Virus record (IMG/VR): IMGVR_UViG_3300020439_000012
Span: 1-46,321 of that record
Length of the DNA: 46,321 bases
Source of the DNA: a virus
Reading direction: 5' to 3' (one strand)
Part shown: piece by piece, positions 20,805 through 28,726 of the stretch
Position numbering within the stretch: the first letter of the stretch is position 1
Layout: the number at the start of each line of letters is the position of its first letter
Position numbers and translations under genes: made by a program
The notes under the pieces: generated by a model
Told to the model about the DNA's origin: nothing
Database searches by the model: none
What the model saw: only the letters and a program-made list of their open reading frames with translations

Positions 20805-21221
20805 AGATATCAAGGAAAGTATCGTCCTAGTTTCCCCAGAAAGTACAAAGGTGATCCGACAAATGTTATTTATCGGTCATCATGGGAGTATAAGTTCATG
20901 AAATGGTGTGATATAACCGCATCAGTTCAAGAATGGGGAAGTGAAGAGATCATTATTCCATACATATCACCAGTTGACGGCAAAAGACATAGATATTTTC
21001 CCGATTTTTATGTCAAAATAGCAAACAAAAGGTATCTGGTTGAAGTCAAACCATTTAGGCAGACTAAAGAACCTAAAACCCAAAAAAGAATGACAAAACG
21101 CTATATTAATGAGGTTGTTACTTGGAGTGTCAACCAAGCAAAGTGGAAAGCAGCAACTGAATTCTGCAAAGATAATAATTGGGAATTTATGTTAATCACA
21201 GAAAAGGAACTTAAGGTCTAA
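20802..21221 (+). CDS. 4: gp4 head completion protein
   Basis: 139 residues (T4: 150). A nuclease-like fold is visible: RSSWEYKFMKWCD with Glu, SVQEWGSEEIIIPY, then the HRYFPDFYV strand with Asp and YLVEVKP with Glu-x-Lys, the TnsA-like PD-(D/E)XK arrangement. In T4 gp4 completes the DNA-filled head before tail joining. ATG 20802 lies in a divergent promoter region; stop overlaps the next start. Confidence 0.85.
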   Translation: MRYQGKYRPSFPRKYKGDPTNVIYRSSWEYKFMKWCDITASVQEWGSEEIIIPYISPVDGKRHRYFPDFYVKIANKRYLVEVKPFRQTKEPKTQKRMTKRYINEVVTWSVNQAKWKAATEFCKDNNWEFMLITEKELKV

Positions 21222-22021
21222 TGGCAATCCCAAATCCGCAGGCAGCAAAATATAACTCATTAAATGAATTCATAGGGCAATTCAAGGACAATGATAATTT
21301 CCCTAGTACGACGAATTTATTTTCGTTACATTTTGCATGTCCTGCTATTCTTAGATCAACACAAACTCAAGTATCTGGAACATTTGCGGGTCAGACCGAT
21401 GAAGTTTTCAATCCTGAGCGAGGTGATTTAAGAAACTTACTTTTAGATTACTATGCCAAGACTGTAAACTTACCCAGTAAGCAGGTAACTAGTGGTCAAA
21501 TTGTAAATGTAGGTTCTGGATTTAAGTATGCTACTGGTACAGCATTTAGTCAAATCAATATAACGTTTCAAGTTCCTCGTTCTCAATACACCAGAAACTT
21601 CTTTGAGAGATGGGTTGATGAGATGGCGAGAGATTCCAATCAATTTACAGAATTCTATCGCGAGTACGTTTGCCCTAGATTATACATCTTCAAAATGGAG
21701 AGAGGTGGTGGAGATTTAGCAATATCAGATCCCAAACTTCTATCGGAGGTTAGGAGAGCAGCATCACAAGGTCTGCAAGTTCTAACCGCTAGAAAGAATG
21801 ATGTTACAGCATGTTGGGAATTGCAGAACGTTTTTCCATATAACATTGGGTCTATTCAGTTAAATAACGATAAGGCACGAGTTATGGAACTTACTGTTGG
21901 TTTTTACTATGAAAGATATAGGTTCTTTACTAAGGATCAATTTGATTCCCCAGGTCGTCCCGATATCGTACTTGACATGGCAGAAACTTCTGATAATATC
22001 ATTGATACGAACCTCGTCTAA
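21221..22021 (+). CDS. Tail-tube initiator/junction protein (gp54-like)
   Basis: 266 residues (T4 gp54: 320). Tube-protein fold features: LPSKQVTSGQIVNVGSGF, ATGTAFSQINITFQV, a helix RNFFERWVDEMA, and the ending MELTVGFYYERYRFF common to gp19/gp54 proteins. Such proteins sit between baseplate and tail tube. Its place beside gp48 supports gp54; the name is by fold and context rather than close identity. Confidence 0.65.
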   Translation: MAIPNPQAAKYNSLNEFIGQFKDNDNFPSTTNLFSLHFACPAILRSTQTQVSGTFAGQTDEVFNPERGDLRNLLLDYYAKTVNLPSKQVTSGQIVNVGSGFKYATGTAFSQINITFQVPRSQYTRNFFERWVDEMARDSNQFTEFYREYVCPRLYIFKMERGGGDLAISDPKLLSEVRRAASQGLQVLTARKNDVTACWELQNVFPYNIGSIQLNNDKARVMELTVGFYYERYRFFTKDQFDSPGRPDIVLDMAETSDNIIDTNLV

Positions 22022-22028
22022 ATAAATA
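22022..22028 (+). promoter_or_regulatory. Late promoter candidate for gp26
   Basis: ATAAATA in the context CTAAATAAATATACT, directly after the stop codon at 22021 and 18 bases before the gp26 ATG. Confidence 0.5.
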
Positions 22029-22045
22029 TACTGAATTGAATTTCT

Positions 22046-22759
22046 ATGGCATTACCTAAGTTAAACACCCCAAAATACAAACTAAAACTACCTTCTGATG
22101 GTAGTACGGTGAACTTTAGACCTTTCCTCGTAAAGGAAGAAAAATTGCTTCTTTTAGCAACTGAAACGGGTGAAACAGATCAGATTATTACTGCGATCAA
22201 GGACATTATCAGTGCATGTTCTGATGTTAAAAATGTAGACAAATTATCTACATTTGACATTGAATACTTGTTCTTGCAAATCCGTACAAAGTCTGTAGGT
22301 GAATCTGTTGATGTGACAGTCACATGTCAAGATGATGGTGAAACTGAAGTCAAGGCATCTATTCCTCTCGATGAAATCAAAGTAATCAAGGATAGAAAGC
22401 ATAAAAAGGCAATCCAGATCTCAGATGACGTTATTGTGACCATGGGATATCCTAGTTTGGATACCTTTGTCAAAATGAATTTCGTTGATAGTGATGGACC
22501 TGGTGTTGATCAAATCTTTGAAATGGCAGCAGGATGTGTTGAATCAATTGCTGATGAAAATCAGGTATATGATTGTTCCGACATGCCTAAAAAAGAAATC
22601 TTGGAATGGTTTGAAGAGCTTAATAGCAAACAATTTGGTATGATTCAAGAGTTCTTTGAGACCATGCCTAAGTTATCACATACCTTGACTATTACCAATC
22701 CCAATACTGGAAAGGAAAACACGATTGTGCTTGAGGGACTAGCGAGTTTTTTCGCCTAG
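22046..22759 (+). CDS. 26: gp26 baseplate hub assembly protein
   Basis: 237 residues (T4: 208), T4_baseplate family. LPKLNTPKYKLKLPS, NFRPFLVKEEKLLLLA, LSTFDIEYLFLQIRTKSVGE and the C-terminal FFETMPKLSHTLT are typical. In T4 gp26 and gp51 assist assembly of the baseplate hub and are not kept in the virion. The gene ends TTT TTC GCC TAG, and the preceding T plus TTTTTC forms a slippery heptamer that gives access to the gp51 frame. Confidence 0.85.
   Translation: MALPKLNTPKYKLKLPSDGSTVNFRPFLVKEEKLLLLATETGETDQIITAIKDIISACSDVKNVDKLSTFDIEYLFLQIRTKSVGESVDVTVTCQDDGETEVKASIPLDEIKVIKDRKHKKAIQISDDVIVTMGYPSLDTFVKMNFVDSDGPGVDQIFEMAAGCVESIADENQVYDCSDMPKKEILEWFEELNSKQFGMIQEFFETMPKLSHTLTITNPNTGKENTIVLEGLASFFA
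22747..22753 (+). promoter_or_regulatory. Slippery heptamer T TTT TTC for -1 frameshift
   Basis: In gp26's frame the heptamer is T-TTT-TTC, an X-XXY-YYZ site where both tRNAs can re-pair after a -1 slip. The stop of gp26 follows one codon later. A possible stimulatory stem CCTTCA (22764-22769)/TGAAGG (22791-22796) begins 10 bases after the site. The -1 frame then runs 64 codons with a gp51-like sequence and has no start codon before it. Confidence 0.6.
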
Positions 22760-22947
22760 CACTCCTTCACAACAATCTTCGTTCATACTATGAAGGCAAT
22801 TTTGCCCTGATGCACCATCATAAGTGGAACATCGAACATATTGATAATTTAATGCCTTGGGAAAAAGAAATTTATATCAACATGTTGATGCAATTCCTAA
22901 AGGAGGAAGAAAAACGAATGAAGGAGCAGCAAGCAAAAGGTGGCTAA
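22753..22947 (+). CDS. 51: gp51 baseplate hub catalyst, apparently made as gp26-gp51 fusion
   Basis: After a slip at 22747-22753 the reading continues RLALLHNNLRSYYEGNF, ALMHHHKWNIEHIDNLMPW and EKEIYINMLMQFLKEEE, stopping at 22945-22947. This is the pattern I associate with cyanophage gp51: hydrophobic helix, HHKW, then MPWEKEIYI. The -1 frame is closed by TGA at 22732 and contains no ATG, GTG or TTG until ATG 22810, which would lose the conserved N-terminal helix. So the natural product is probably the fusion, as with lambda gpG/gpGT. It lies immediately before the tape-measure-like genes, overlapping the next start by 8 bases. Confidence 0.65.
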   Translation, partial: RLALLHNNLRSYYEGNFALMHHHKWNIEHIDNLMPWEKEIYINMLMQFLKEEEKRMKEQQAKGG

Positions 22948-25858
22948 ATTACAAGTCTATAAATTTGTAAATCCTGGTTCAGTAGGTGCCAATGCACCTG
23001 CTCCAGTCGCTGCTGCGAGTAAAACTACTTTAGCATTAAACAGAACGGGAGCAATTGCATCCAGTATCGGTGAAATGGTACAGGATCTGGAGAAAATTGC
23101 TCTTAAAGGTCAAACATTACAAAAGACTGAAGAAATCCTGGCACGCAAGAGAAAGCGTCGGGAAATGGATGCTGCTGCTGAAGAGGCACAGGAATTAGAA
23201 AAACTAGAAAAAGGAAAGGTAAAACCTAAGAAGGATAGTAAGACTAAGAAAGGTATAAAAAAATCGTTTGGTTGGTTAGAAAGTTTCTTTGGACCGATCG
23301 GTAGTCTTTTAATGAAGGTTGCCACTCTGGGCATTATTACAGAGACTTTAAAATATCTGTCAGATCCTGAAAAGAAACAACAGATTGTAACTTTTTTAGA
23401 GAAAACACAATTTGTTTTTGAAAAGTTATATGGATTTGCTAAAGGTCTAACTACAACTTTCTTAGACGGATTCTCAGCATTGATGGATCCTAATTCAGAC
23501 TTTGGTACTCGTCTGAAGGGTCTTGGAAAGGTGATGCTTGGCATCACAGCACTGAAGTATTTGATGAATCCATTCAGTTTAATTACTGATATTCTTGGTA
23601 TCATCGATCTTCTAAGTCTTGGTGGAGGGACAAAGCAACCAAAGAACCAACCAAAGTCGAAGACACAAAAGAAACCTCCTGGAGTAGATCCTAAAACTAA
23701 GAAACCACCAGGTAGCACTACTACAACACCAAAACCGCAAGTAAGACCCCAGACTACGTTTACTGGGATTGAAGATAGTGCTTTAAATTCACCACAAAGA
23801 AGAATAGGTGACAATATTTCTAAACAGCATGGTAATGCTGCTAGAAATGTATATAACCAAAGATATAATCAATTAATCTCTGAAGGTGTTTCTCCATCTC
23901 AAGCAGCAGCGCGTGCTAAAGCAGATGTAGCAAAGAGAATTAGTAAAGGGCAGATTAAATCTGCACCTAAACTGGGTAGTCTATCTACCAGAAGTAATAG
24001 GATTACTGCGACTTTATTAGGTGAAAGCAACGAACAGGCAGCAAAATTAGCAGGATCTTCCATCTTCAAGAAGGGAATTGATAAAGCAACACAACGTTTC
24101 TTCCTGAAGATTCTTGGCATGGGCGGTGTCAAGGCTCTGAAGAAAGTTTTTAACAGAATTCCTGTCATTGGTCCTCTGATTACATTTGCACTTAACTGGG
24201 CAGCAGGTGAATCGATTGCCAAGTCTTCTGCTATGGCAGTTGGTGCAGGTATTGGTGAACTGCTTGGAACTTGGGCGGGTGGTGCTATTGGTGCTATTGG
24301 TGGTCCAGCAGCACCTCTCACAGTTCCTATCGGTGCCTTTATTGGAGGTGTGCTCGGTAGTCTTGGTGGTGAAGCACTTGGTGGATGGTTGTTTAGCACT
24401 ATCACTGGAGAAGGTGGTGGATCAGGTGGTCTTGGTGCTGTAGGCGAATCCCTGATGGGAGCAGTCAAGACTTTATTTACTGGTGAGTTCTGGACACAAA
24501 TTGGTCAAGGTATAGCAGAATTCTTTGGTAATGTAGTCAAGGGGATTGGCGGTCTGTGGAACATGTTAGGTTCCATGGCAGAATTCCTAGGTGTCAAAAA
24601 TTTCTTTGATGCCCTTTGGGAGGAACTCGGCAGCATTGCTGGTTCGATGTTCAAGGTGATGAAGTATCTCGCCAATCCACTTAACTGGTGGAAAATTGGT
24701 GGCGAGTTATTCAAAATAACAAAACAACTTACCAAACTATTTGTATTCCCTGGTCCTATAGGTTTTATTTGGGAGAATGCTATTCAACCATTCTTCGCGA
24801 ATGTTGGAAAACTTTGGGCACAAAGAGATAGGTTCTTTGATTTCTTAATGCAACCAGGAACGTTCCAACAAACGTTTGGTGCAAAATATGATCCAAGTCA
24901 GACTTCTCCTCAAGCAAAAGGATCTCAAGACAGACAAGCACATTCTGGCGGCGGACTTGTACAACCTCAACAATTATTCCTTGGTGGTATTGTCAAAGGT
25001 ATTAAGAAAGCGGTAAGTGGTGTAGGTAAAGCAGTTGGTAGTATTGTAAGTAACCCTATTGTTCAGACTGCTGCGTCGTTTATTCCTGGTGCTGGACCTA
25101 TCATAGCAGGTGTTAATGCAGTTGCTGGTCTTGCCAGTGGTAATCCCATGGGTGCTATCACTCAAGGTCTCAGCATGATTCCTGGAGTAAGTGGAATAAT
25201 GAGTCAAGTTGGCAATTTCATGGATTCGCCACTTGGAGGAATTGCATCAAACTTGCTGGGAGGAAACTTTGCTGGTGCTATCACTGGTGGATTAAACATG
25301 ATCAACCCAGCATTAGGTGCCATTGGAGGTAATCTGATGAGTGGCAACTTTATGGGTGCTCTCAGCGGTGGATTGAACATGATCAATCCTAATCTTGGTG
25401 GTATTGCACAGCAATTAGCAGGTGGTAACTTCGGTGGTGCTATTCAGAATGCATTCAACTCTTTTGATATTGGTTCTAAACTTGGAAGTTTTGGTGGAAC
25501 TGTATCTGCATTTGTGAATAGTGGATTCGATGCAATGACTGGTATGCAAGCAATGGCAGATCAGTTTGGTGCTGGTGGTATCTTCCGAGGTATTACTAAT
25601 GCTATAGGTGGAGATTATTCATCTGCAATTAGTGAGATTGGTTCCGATCTCGGTATCGATCCTAAGATTTTGGGTGTAGCAAGTTCTGCTACAAAAGAAA
25701 TGATGAAACCTGGTGGTTTATCTGCTGAATATGTAATGAACACTGCTATAGACATTGTTCCTGTTCCAGTTGTTCTTGAGAAAATTGTTCCTATTCCTCA
25801 AGCAGTGCCCATAAATAACGTTAGAACTATTGTTCAACATGCTGCCTCAGGGAGATAA
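22940..25858 (+). CDS. Tape-measure-like tail protein 1
   Basis: 972 residues from GTG 22940 (AAGGAG upstream). Layout: YKFVNPG start, a coiled-coil-like Lys/Glu segment (about 50-105), hydrophobic helices (about 110-225), a Pro/Lys/Thr linker (about 230-275), glycine-rich hydrophobic stretches (GIGELLGTWAGGAIGAIGG), and a C-terminal third with repeated GGNFxGAIxGGLNMINPxLG units (three or more). This is the look of tape-measure proteins. Position straight after the frameshifted chaperone pair supports that. T4 gp29 is shorter, so direct homology is unproven. Confidence 0.6.
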   Translation: MAKLQVYKFVNPGSVGANAPAPVAAASKTTLALNRTGAIASSIGEMVQDLEKIALKGQTLQKTEEILARKRKRREMDAAAEEAQELEKLEKGKVKPKKDSKTKKGIKKSFGWLESFFGPIGSLLMKVATLGIITETLKYLSDPEKKQQIVTFLEKTQFVFEKLYGFAKGLTTTFLDGFSALMDPNSDFGTRLKGLGKVMLGITALKYLMNPFSLITDILGIIDLLSLGGGTKQPKNQPKSKTQKKPPGVDPKTKKPPGSTTTTPKPQVRPQTTFTGIEDSALNSPQRRIGDNISKQHGNAARNVYNQRYNQLISEGVSPSQAAARAKADVAKRISKGQIKSAPKLGSLSTRSNRITATLLGESNEQAAKLAGSSIFKKGIDKATQRFFLKILGMGGVKALKKVFNRIPVIGPLITFALNWAAGESIAKSSAMAVGAGIGELLGTWAGGAIGAIGGPAAPLTVPIGAFIGGVLGSLGGEALGGWLFSTITGEGGGSGGLGAVGESLMGAVKTLFTGEFWTQIGQGIAEFFGNVVKGIGGLWNMLGSMAEFLGVKNFFDALWEELGSIAGSMFKVMKYLANPLNWWKIGGELFKITKQLTKLFVFPGPIGFIWENAIQPFFANVGKLWAQRDRFFDFLMQPGTFQQTFGAKYDPSQTSPQAKGSQDRQAHSGGGLVQPQQLFLGGIVKGIKKAVSGVGKAVGSIVSNPIVQTAASFIPGAGPIIAGVNAVAGLASGNPMGAITQGLSMIPGVSGIMSQVGNFMDSPLGGIASNLLGGNFAGAITGGLNMINPALGAIGGNLMSGNFMGALSGGLNMINPNLGGIAQQLAGGNFGGAIQNAFNSFDIGSKLGSFGGTVSAFVNSGFDAMTGMQAMADQFGAGGIFRGITNAIGGDYSSAISEIGSDLGIDPKILGVASSATKEMMKPGGLSAEYVMNTAIDIVPVPVVLEKIVPIPQAVPINNVRTIVQHAASGR

Positions 25859-25861
25859 TTG

Positions 25862-28726
25862 ATGGCAACCATTTCAAAAACTAGCAAGATTAATTTCTAT
25901 AAGTTCGTTAATGTAGAAAAAGTATCTGTTGATGCTAATGACACAAAGAACGAACCTAAAAGAAGAGCAAAGTTAGTAAAATCTATTAACAACAATACTC
26001 AAGCAGTGAATAATCTGGGTGCTACCCTGAATTCAATTGCTGGAATGGTTGCTGGTTTGAAGTCTGCCATGATCGGTAGATTGGAATTGCAAGAGAAGCA
26101 AAAGAAAAAGTTTGACGCTGAATATACAGAACCGAAAAAAGATAGGAAACTGGTTAGTTTTGTAGGACAACTTGTAACTGGCACAGGTAGTTTCTTTGAA
26201 GCTATCATGAAGATGTTTGGGGGTTTGTTCAAATTATTTGTTGTTGTACCTGCACTCAAATGGTTAGCTGACCCGAAAAATAAACAGAAAGTTATTGGTA
26301 TTTTAGAAGGTATTGCTAAGGTAGTCAAGTTTATTTTTGACTGGGCAAAATTTGGTGTCGTTAATACTATTGAAGGATTATATAAACTTTTATCTGATGA
26401 TACTAGTTGGTGGGAAAAACTAAAAGGTTTTGGACAAGCATTTGTTGGATTAGGTGCATTGTTCCTTGGATTGCGTTGGTTGAGCAATCCTTTAAAAATT
26501 ATTACGGATTTTGGTGCCGTCCTCAAATTGTTTTATAATGGCCTTGTGAGAGGCAAAGCAAGCCTTATAAAAAGAGCTTTGAGGTTTGGACTTAATCCAA
26601 AGACTCTATTAGCTGCTGGCGTCATCACTGCAGGTGTCATGACGTACCTATCAAACCAAGAGGGTTCTGCACAGGATGAAGATGCTGCAGCTCAAGGCAA
26701 ATCTCGTCAGCAGGAAATGTCTGAGGAGAAAAGTGGTGGTGGATTTAATGTCTCCGAACCTTTCAATGTTTTCTCTAGAGGTGGTAAAGTCCCCTCATTA
26801 AAAGGTTTCTCTCAGGGAGGATGGATCAATGGACCACAATCAGGATATCCCGTATCATTGGATGGAGGGAGATCAACCGCGTTTATCGGACATGGCTCTG
26901 AGTACGTCGCTAGAAAGAGCGATGGGGGAGCTTTCGTCGTTCCTTTTAATACTCCTGGAACAAAAACGCAACCCCACCTAACAGATAAACGACTGGGTGA
27001 AGCAAAAAGTTTAGGATATAAAGTTCCTGGATTTGCACAGGGTGGTAATTTAGATAAACAGATTTATTTCCACTGGACTGCTGGTGGATATAATTGGAAG
27101 AATGGTCCATATCACACAACTATTCAAGGTGATGGTAGTGCATATAGACACAAGGGTTATGATGAACATACTAACCATACTTACTACAGAAATCGTGGTA
27201 ATGTAGGTATCTCCATGGCAGGTATGAAGGGATGGGATTGGGACAACTATGGTCCTAAAAACATTCAACTTCAAAATATGGCAAAGGAAGCATCTAACGT
27301 TGCTCTAGACTGGGGATGGGAACCAAAACATATTAATATTAAGCGTGTAATGAATCACGCTGAAGCAGCATCAAATAAAGATGGTAGATCACCTCATGAT
27401 AATTATGGTCCTACTTGGTGGGGTGGTACTGGTGAGCGTTCTGACTTACATAAACTATCTAAGAATGAAGCAGATGGCAGTGGTGGTGATAAACTTCGTG
27501 CCATGGTTAAAAAATATTTGGCAAAAGGTGAGAGGTATAATATTCCTAGTGCTGGTGGACCTGCTACTGACAATACTGGATCTGGTTCTACTAGACAGGG
27601 CGGAGAAATTTCTGGTTCCAAAGAATTTGAATACTTACAAAAACTCGTTTTAGCAGAAGCAGGTGGAGAAGGTTTAATTGGACAGGCATTGGTTGCTAGA
27701 TCAGTTCTTAATAGAGCAGGACTAATTCAGGGCAATGTAGTTAATCCTGGAATGTTTAACGCAAAGTCTGGTAGTATCACTGACGTTATTAATGCTCCTG
27801 GTCAGTATCAACCAGTACCAGCATCTATTAATGGTAATGGTGATGGAAGTATCAATAAACCAAGAACTAAAGGACAGATGGACGCTGCAGCATCAGCGAT
27901 TAAAATAGCACAAAATCCTTCAGGTCTTAGGGGTAGTCTTGAGGCACGGGGATTAGGACCAGATCAGATCAATTATTTGTTAGCAGCAACTGGATTTAGA
28001 ACTGGTTCTGCAAAAAAAGATTCTTCTCAGAATGTCAACGTTGTTCAATTTGGTAATCATTTCTTCACTACTGCTGGCAATAAAAATCTACAAACACCAG
28101 TAAGTGAGATTGGTCCTGATGGTGGTACTAGTGGTCATAGAGGTTTAGATTCTCCTGTAGGAGATGCAGCAACTGAATCAAGTAAACCAAAAGTTAAAAT
28201 TAATTTAGGTCTCGGACCTGGATCTGATTCTAGATCTGGTATGGTGAGAAGGGGTGCTAGTTATGCACATTCAGTAGATGCCCTCATTAGACAGGCTCAA
28301 CAGGCAGATACTAATCAACGATTAGCAGCACTAAGAGGCGCAGTTCCTGGTGGTCCTACTGGTAATATGTCTAATTTAGGACCTGGAAAACGACCAGGTG
28401 CTAGTGATGTACAAAGACAGAGAGAATTGGCAAAACTAACTGAAGATAGAAATGCTGCCAAGGAAGGCATAAGTCAAAGAACTAGAGAGATGATTCAAGC
28501 TGTTATGGATCAGGTTGGAAGACAAAATGGTATGAATAGACAGCAGATTGGTGCTGCTCAGCAAGTGATTACACAACTAATGTCACAAGCGAGTGGACAA
28601 CAGGAACAACATATGATGACTAGTAGTATGAGTGGTCGGGGAACCAGTCGTGTCAACGGAGTACAACAAACATCTGCAAAGGCGTTGAATTCCAACCTAA
28701 ATCCAATTAAAGGTCTGATCAAATGA
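25862..28726 (+). CDS. Tape-measure-like protein 2 with amidase-like and SleB-like domains
   Basis: 954 residues from ATG 25862 (AGGGAG upstream). The N-terminus (INFYKFVN) and following helices resemble its upstream neighbour, so the two are paralogues. Residues about 395-530 look like a type-2 N-acetylmuramoyl-alanine amidase: IYFHWTAGG with His404, HTTIQGDGSAYRH, GNVGISMAGM, and RVMNHAEAA with His499. Residues about 590-740 look like a SleB-type cell-wall hydrolase: LVLAEAGGEGLIGQALVARS with Glu599, VLNRA, then NVVQFGNHFFTTAG. The remainder is Gln/Gly-rich. Probably cuts host peptidoglycan during DNA entry. It ends in an ATGA overlap. Confidence 0.7.
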   Translation: MATISKTSKINFYKFVNVEKVSVDANDTKNEPKRRAKLVKSINNNTQAVNNLGATLNSIAGMVAGLKSAMIGRLELQEKQKKKFDAEYTEPKKDRKLVSFVGQLVTGTGSFFEAIMKMFGGLFKLFVVVPALKWLADPKNKQKVIGILEGIAKVVKFIFDWAKFGVVNTIEGLYKLLSDDTSWWEKLKGFGQAFVGLGALFLGLRWLSNPLKIITDFGAVLKLFYNGLVRGKASLIKRALRFGLNPKTLLAAGVITAGVMTYLSNQEGSAQDEDAAAQGKSRQQEMSEEKSGGGFNVSEPFNVFSRGGKVPSLKGFSQGGWINGPQSGYPVSLDGGRSTAFIGHGSEYVARKSDGGAFVVPFNTPGTKTQPHLTDKRLGEAKSLGYKVPGFAQGGNLDKQIYFHWTAGGYNWKNGPYHTTIQGDGSAYRHKGYDEHTNHTYYRNRGNVGISMAGMKGWDWDNYGPKNIQLQNMAKEASNVALDWGWEPKHINIKRVMNHAEAASNKDGRSPHDNYGPTWWGGTGERSDLHKLSKNEADGSGGDKLRAMVKKYLAKGERYNIPSAGGPATDNTGSGSTRQGGEISGSKEFEYLQKLVLAEAGGEGLIGQALVARSVLNRAGLIQGNVVNPGMFNAKSGSITDVINAPGQYQPVPASINGNGDGSINKPRTKGQMDAAASAIKIAQNPSGLRGSLEARGLGPDQINYLLAATGFRTGSAKKDSSQNVNVVQFGNHFFTTAGNKNLQTPVSEIGPDGGTSGHRGLDSPVGDAATESSKPKVKINLGLGPGSDSRSGMVRRGASYAHSVDALIRQAQQADTNQRLAALRGAVPGGPTGNMSNLGPGKRPGASDVQRQRELAKLTEDRNAAKEGISQRTREMIQAVMDQVGRQNGMNRQQIGAAQQVITQLMSQASGQQEQHMMTSSMSGRGTSRVNGVQQTSAKALNSNLNPIKGLIK

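Follow-up and report, generated by a model that had tools for sequence, protein, structure and literature searches.

A conserved −1 frameshift site very probably joins gp26 and gp51 into short and long tail assembly chaperones in a Syn30-like cyanophage

Introduction

In Escherichia coli dnaX, the homopolymeric heptamer A AAA AAG is preceded, at about 10 nt, by a Shine-Dalgarno (SD)-like element and accompanied by a strong downstream hairpin, and the slippery heptamer of the lambda tail genes G/GT is G GGA AAG. The lambda frameshift was reportedly described by Levin et al. in 1993 and Xu et al. in 2004.

The T4-like tail assembly chaperones gp26/gp51 are, according to two citing papers (PMC12846349 and PMC10885494), the subject of Vladimirov, Gautam and Davidson (2022, Virology 566:9-15). 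The paper on phage Adele cites that work for the polyT signals by which chaperone genes of T4-like phages shift to −1 (PMC12846349), and the PRFect paper, crediting the same source, states that some T4-like phages have short and fused long chaperone genes, with no frameshifting (PMC10885494). Phage Adele itself resembles the present case in that a conserved polyT −1 site lies where the short chaperone ends and in a downstream piece misannotated in databases, but belongs to another phage family, the Vandenendeviridae, and has the motif GTTTTT (PMC12846349). As these citing papers present it, the core finding—frameshifted tail chaperones in T4-like phages—is already known; the link between the T4 hub-assembly pair and the classic tail chaperones, raised in an earlier note made from the sequence alone, is likewise not new, being, on their account, the topic of the 2022 work. 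What is reported here on the SD-like element, on the Vibrio variant and on the tree may add to this core.

The locus under study lies in a 46,321-nucleotide stretch of viral DNA (IMG/VR record IMGVR_UViG_3300020439_000012), hereafter the window, which over positions 21000-24000 shares 99.9% identity with Synechococcus phage Syn30. Its likeness to the T4-like gp26/gp51 system consists in the PF12322 family, the polyT −1 signal and the short and long forms (PMC12846349, PMC10885494); T4 itself, however, has two divergently encoded, paralogous genes, 26 and 51, whereas the Syn30-like window has one gene with a very probable frameshift. The window's heptamer, T TTT TTC, differs from that of lambda G/GT. 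With dnaX the locus shares an SD-like element upstream of a homopolymeric heptamer, although the heptamer of dnaX consists of A and G and its hairpin is strong, the downstream structure in the window being weak.

Materials and methods

The loci examined comprised 80 gp26 relatives from IMG/VR and 28 further loci, with counts made over 109 single-gp26 loci; a non-redundant set contained 68 relatives less than 85% alike.

Results and discussion

The gp26 gene and its slippery site

The 3′ end of gp26 reads AGT TTT TTC GCC TAG, the features of this part of the locus being the following:

22046-22759, plus strand: gp26 open reading frame, 237 aa, predicted short (G-like) form of the tail assembly chaperone (Pfam PF12322, E 2.4e-77; phrog_150, E 3.6e-88)
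22747-22753, plus strand: slippery heptamer T TTT TTC (104 TTTTTTC and 3 TTTTTTT in 107 relatives; Phe codons TTT in 68/68 and TTC in 66/68)
22757-22759, plus strand: gp26 stop TAG, one codon past the slip site (exactly one sense codon between them in 102 of 107 relatives)

The PF12322 domain of gp26 scored 259.9 bits against a cut-off of 24.5. The AlphaFold model of the protein had a pLDDT of 85.5, and in a Foldseek comparison with the PDB the top probability among the matches listed, 0.57, belonged to 2OB9, the HK97 tail assembly chaperone gp13, a similarity of fold that is not significant (E 1.1). Searching solved structures by sequence returned none for gp26 or for T4 gp51.

The heptamer one codon before the gp26 stop, from which the earlier note had started, was thus found in place, and it is conserved. 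In the first 81 loci, the window included, TTTTTTC is followed by one codon and a stop, with gp51 in the −1 frame, without exception (81/81). Comparison of the junction across the relatives, a check that the note had proposed for cyanomyoviruses, placed the run of six T in one and the same codon phase in 107 of 109 loci, some of them with no more than about 30% gp26 identity, the exceptions being a Vibrio phage (L086) and a Stenotrophomonas phage Marzo-like locus (L117). The latter has five T at the slip site, leading into the +1 frame, which is probably a sequencing indel. Among 57 conserved gp26 codon columns in the 68 relatives, the two slip-site Phe codons form the most uniform pair, with all other columns at or below 0.91, while Phe codons elsewhere in gp26 are divided between TTT (804) and TTC (422). 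Moreover, the base before the two Phe codons is T in 68/68, though the residue encoded there may be Ser, Asn, Asp, Ala or Gly. It should be mentioned that TTTTTTC is not over-represented within the window (19 copies against 19.2 expected), so that its mere occurrence at the end of gp26 carries no weight; it is the conservation of the site that goes beyond chance expectation. A search of Rfam matched no family.

A homopolymer run present in all relatives examined, except the Vibrio phages and the locus with the likely indel, might also be taken as a site where RNA polymerase slips, producing mixed mRNAs, some of them with gp51 in frame. Six bases are, however, short for transcriptional slippage, the terminal C is kept in 104/107 and the codon phase is one and the same throughout, and the SD-like element described below stands at a fixed spacing and acts on ribosomes, so that slippage of the polymerase appears the least probable of the explanations, close to negligible.

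The gp51 tail in the −1 frame

The second coding stretch overlaps the end of gp26 in the −1 frame and has no start of its own ahead of the overlap, as in pairs of the lambda G/GT type:

22753-22947, plus strand: gp51 coding stretch read in −1, 64 residues past FF, predicted C-terminal domain of the long form (phrog_634, E 2.1e-32; third-position variation before the first ATG)

A direct check of the sequence bore out that a TGA at 22732-22734 interrupts this frame, that the first ATG, GTG or TTG in it is the ATG at 22810, and that it ends with TAA at 22945-22947. No relative has a start codon upstream of the site within the −1 open stretch (0/68). The claim that gp51-like codons begin already at 22753 was upheld by the match to phrog_634 and by the third-position-biased pattern of change: over the first 18 codons past the site, i.e. 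before the window's first ATG, the third positions of the −1 frame collect 680 differences, as compared with 485 and 339, and it is only in this frame that synonymous differences are in excess (298/837 against 92/901 and 74/901). The tail is under purifying selection ahead of the window's first ATG; judged from these patterns, it appears to be translated, in the window from something other than a start of its own.

These observations bear on the possibility that gp51 is a separate protein of 45 aa, translated from the ATG at 22810 by coupling or by reinitiation past the gp26 stop. It is annotated as such, from this ATG, in the records of S-P4 and Syn33, and a split form may exist elsewhere, two Vibrio phages (D533 and 207E48) having a TAATG overlap and no heptamer. 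The conserved tail nevertheless begins at the slip site, well ahead of that ATG, and a separate gp51 would leave unexplained both the conserved codons of the heptamer and the match of T4 gp51 across the junction of the fusion (see below); such a protein is thus very improbable in the window, if a shade less so than slippage of the polymerase. In relatives an ATG often follows soon after the site—at codons 2-4 in 31/68 and at codon 6 in 10 more, i.e. in 41 within codons 2-6—and might start a separate gp51 there.

Proposed mechanism

It appears almost certain that a programmed −1 frameshift joins gp26 to gp51, giving a short and a long tail assembly chaperone; this reading of the earlier note is by far the best one, the conserved site and its codons, the selection on the tail and the literature on T4-like chaperones all agreeing with it. 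That ribosomes shift frame here, how often they do so and that the products act as chaperones are inferences from the sequence comparisons. Most ribosomes would end at the gp26 stop and release the short chaperone, while a minority would pause on T TTT TTC, the GAGGG before it being base-paired with 16S rRNA. The two tRNA-Phe would then slip one base back, and translation would go on in the −1 frame as ...SFF-RLALLHNNLRSYYEGNFALMHHHKW... to yield a long chaperone of 300 residues. Like G/GT of lambda, this pair of proteins probably acts by coating and delivering the tape measure protein and by recruiting subunits of the tail tube.

Putative stimulatory elements

Two elements around the heptamer may assist the shift:

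22733-22737, plus strand: SD-like GAGGG, putative dnaX-type stimulator, lying 9 nt before the heptamer (conservation z −9.9 when compared with synonymously resampled codons, 68 relatives)
22764-22796, plus strand: stem CCTTCA/TGAAGG, possible weak stimulator (6/6 pairs in only 5/68 relatives; partial retention in the nearest clade)

A GAGG able to pair with the 16S 3′ end is conserved, 7-9 nt upstream of the heptamer, beyond the constraint of the peptide: on average, the best SD pairing reaches −7.36 kcal/mol, as opposed to −5.66 (sd 0.17) after synonymous resampling of codons, and the conserved Glu in the element is encoded by GAG in 43 cases and GAA in 14, against 429 and 1139, respectively, elsewhere. 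The stem named in the earlier note is indeed present in the window, with its arms at 22764-22769 (CCTTCA) and 22791-22796 (TGAAGG), but it is only partly conserved, the relatives with all six pairs being mostly those nearest to the window, and the window's own fold at +5 to +50 is no more stable than that of synonymous variants (z +0.31). As a stimulator conserved across the family the stem was rejected; at most, it may be a weak one in the Syn30-type clade. In the same interval the mean structure of the relatives does exceed synonymous controls (z −1.88, SEM 0.19; control segments −0.16 to −0.94), with downstream hairpins that differ from lineage to lineage. The upstream SD-like GAGG is, by comparison of these sequences, the better-supported candidate stimulator.

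Relationship to T4 gp26 and gp51

In profile comparison, T4 gp26 and gp51 matched each other with a probability of 98.9 and an E of 3.6e-17 (gp26 8-208 with gp51 7-203), and both match PF12322; the two are, by these comparisons, paralogues. The predicted frameshift fusion aligned end to end with T4 gp51, which has 249 residues, across the junction (fusion 12-287 with gp51 6-250; probability 98.7, E 1.9e-16), whereas the alignment of T4 gp26 to it stopped at the slip site (probability 99.5). The gp51 tail by itself matched residues 207-249 of T4 gp51 (probability 93, E 2.9e-7), and profile comparison found no counterpart of it in T4 gp26. The earlier proposal that the T4 genes 26 and 51 are one frameshifted pair here hence holds as far as the joining is concerned, but T4 gp51 corresponds to the whole fusion and not to the small tail piece. 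The AlphaFold model of a T4-like gp51 (pLDDT 89.2) had no match in the PDB; in a viral structure library its significant matches were baseplate-hub-type or unnamed phage proteins. In another T4-like phage (L097:2001-2746) gp51 is broken into two frames covering residues 1-120 and 113-247, which may be an error or a real split, and in the T4 record (L081:5803-6090) gp26′ is annotated as a product of an internal in-frame start in gene 26.

Three genomes (T4, RB43, Aeromonas 31) contain two copies of PF12322, and 13 other records contain one. Of the genomes checked for the slip run, the single-copy ones other than two Vibrio phages have it, S-PM2, KVP40, Aeh1 and LPCS28 with TTTTTTC and HTVC008M with TTTTTTT; the three two-copy genomes have no run of six T at the gp26 end. 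This pattern offers a clean natural comparison between frameshifting and gene duplication. The Vibrio phages D533 (L141) and 207E48 (L142) have a single copy without the heptamer, their gp51-like piece beginning at the ATG of the TAATG overlap, which suggests a split, two-protein form.

In the evolutionary tree, gp26 and gp51 of the T4 type fall together in a single clade (UFBoot 99) nested among the single-copy proteins, close to those of Aeh1, LPCS28 and KVP40, although its exact position there is weakly supported (57-65). The gp26 copy of RB43 joins the gp51 clade basally (89), probably as a long branch. The position of the clade inside the single-copy proteins points to duplication within Straboviridae, which would be the simplest history of the T4-type pair. 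On balance, we lean slightly towards the frameshift, with dnaX-like SD stimulation, having been ancestral for the tail chaperones of the T4 family and having given way, on one occasion within Straboviridae, to a duplicated pair, short 26 and long 51, and, among some Vibrio phages, to a split by stop-start overlap. If so, one pair of chaperone forms would have been reached by three decoding routes. The correspondence of T4 gp26 and gp51 to a short and a long form of the same chaperone also offers a possible reason why hub assembly in T4 needs the two of them.

Annotation and neighbouring genes

The cyanophage records need correction, gp51 being either listed as a protein in its own right, "baseplate hub assembly catalyst", that starts at an internal ATG—45 aa in S-P4 and Syn33, in S-P4 from the equivalent of 22810—or omitted, as in the RefSeq record of Syn30, where no gp51 is annotated between gp26 and the next open reading frame.

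Upstream of gp26, the open reading frame at 21221-22021 encodes a tail tube protein (phrog_45, E 8.8e-56). Downstream, the first feature is the following:

22940-25858, plus strand: 972-aa open reading frame in the tape-measure gene position, candidate (phrog_790; GTG start overlapping the gp51 end)

An open reading frame does stand where the earlier note placed tape-measure-like genes, but its identity as a tape measure found no sequence support, hhalign giving no match between the 972-aa protein and T4 gp29 or annotated tape measures. In the relatives Cr30 and phiM12, genes annotated as tape measure or tape-measure-like follow after one small gene downstream of gp51. In the window, the 972-aa and 955-aa open reading frames of the region 22940-28726 share about 210 N-terminal residues (hhalign probability 99.3) and, from this similarity, look like paralogues.
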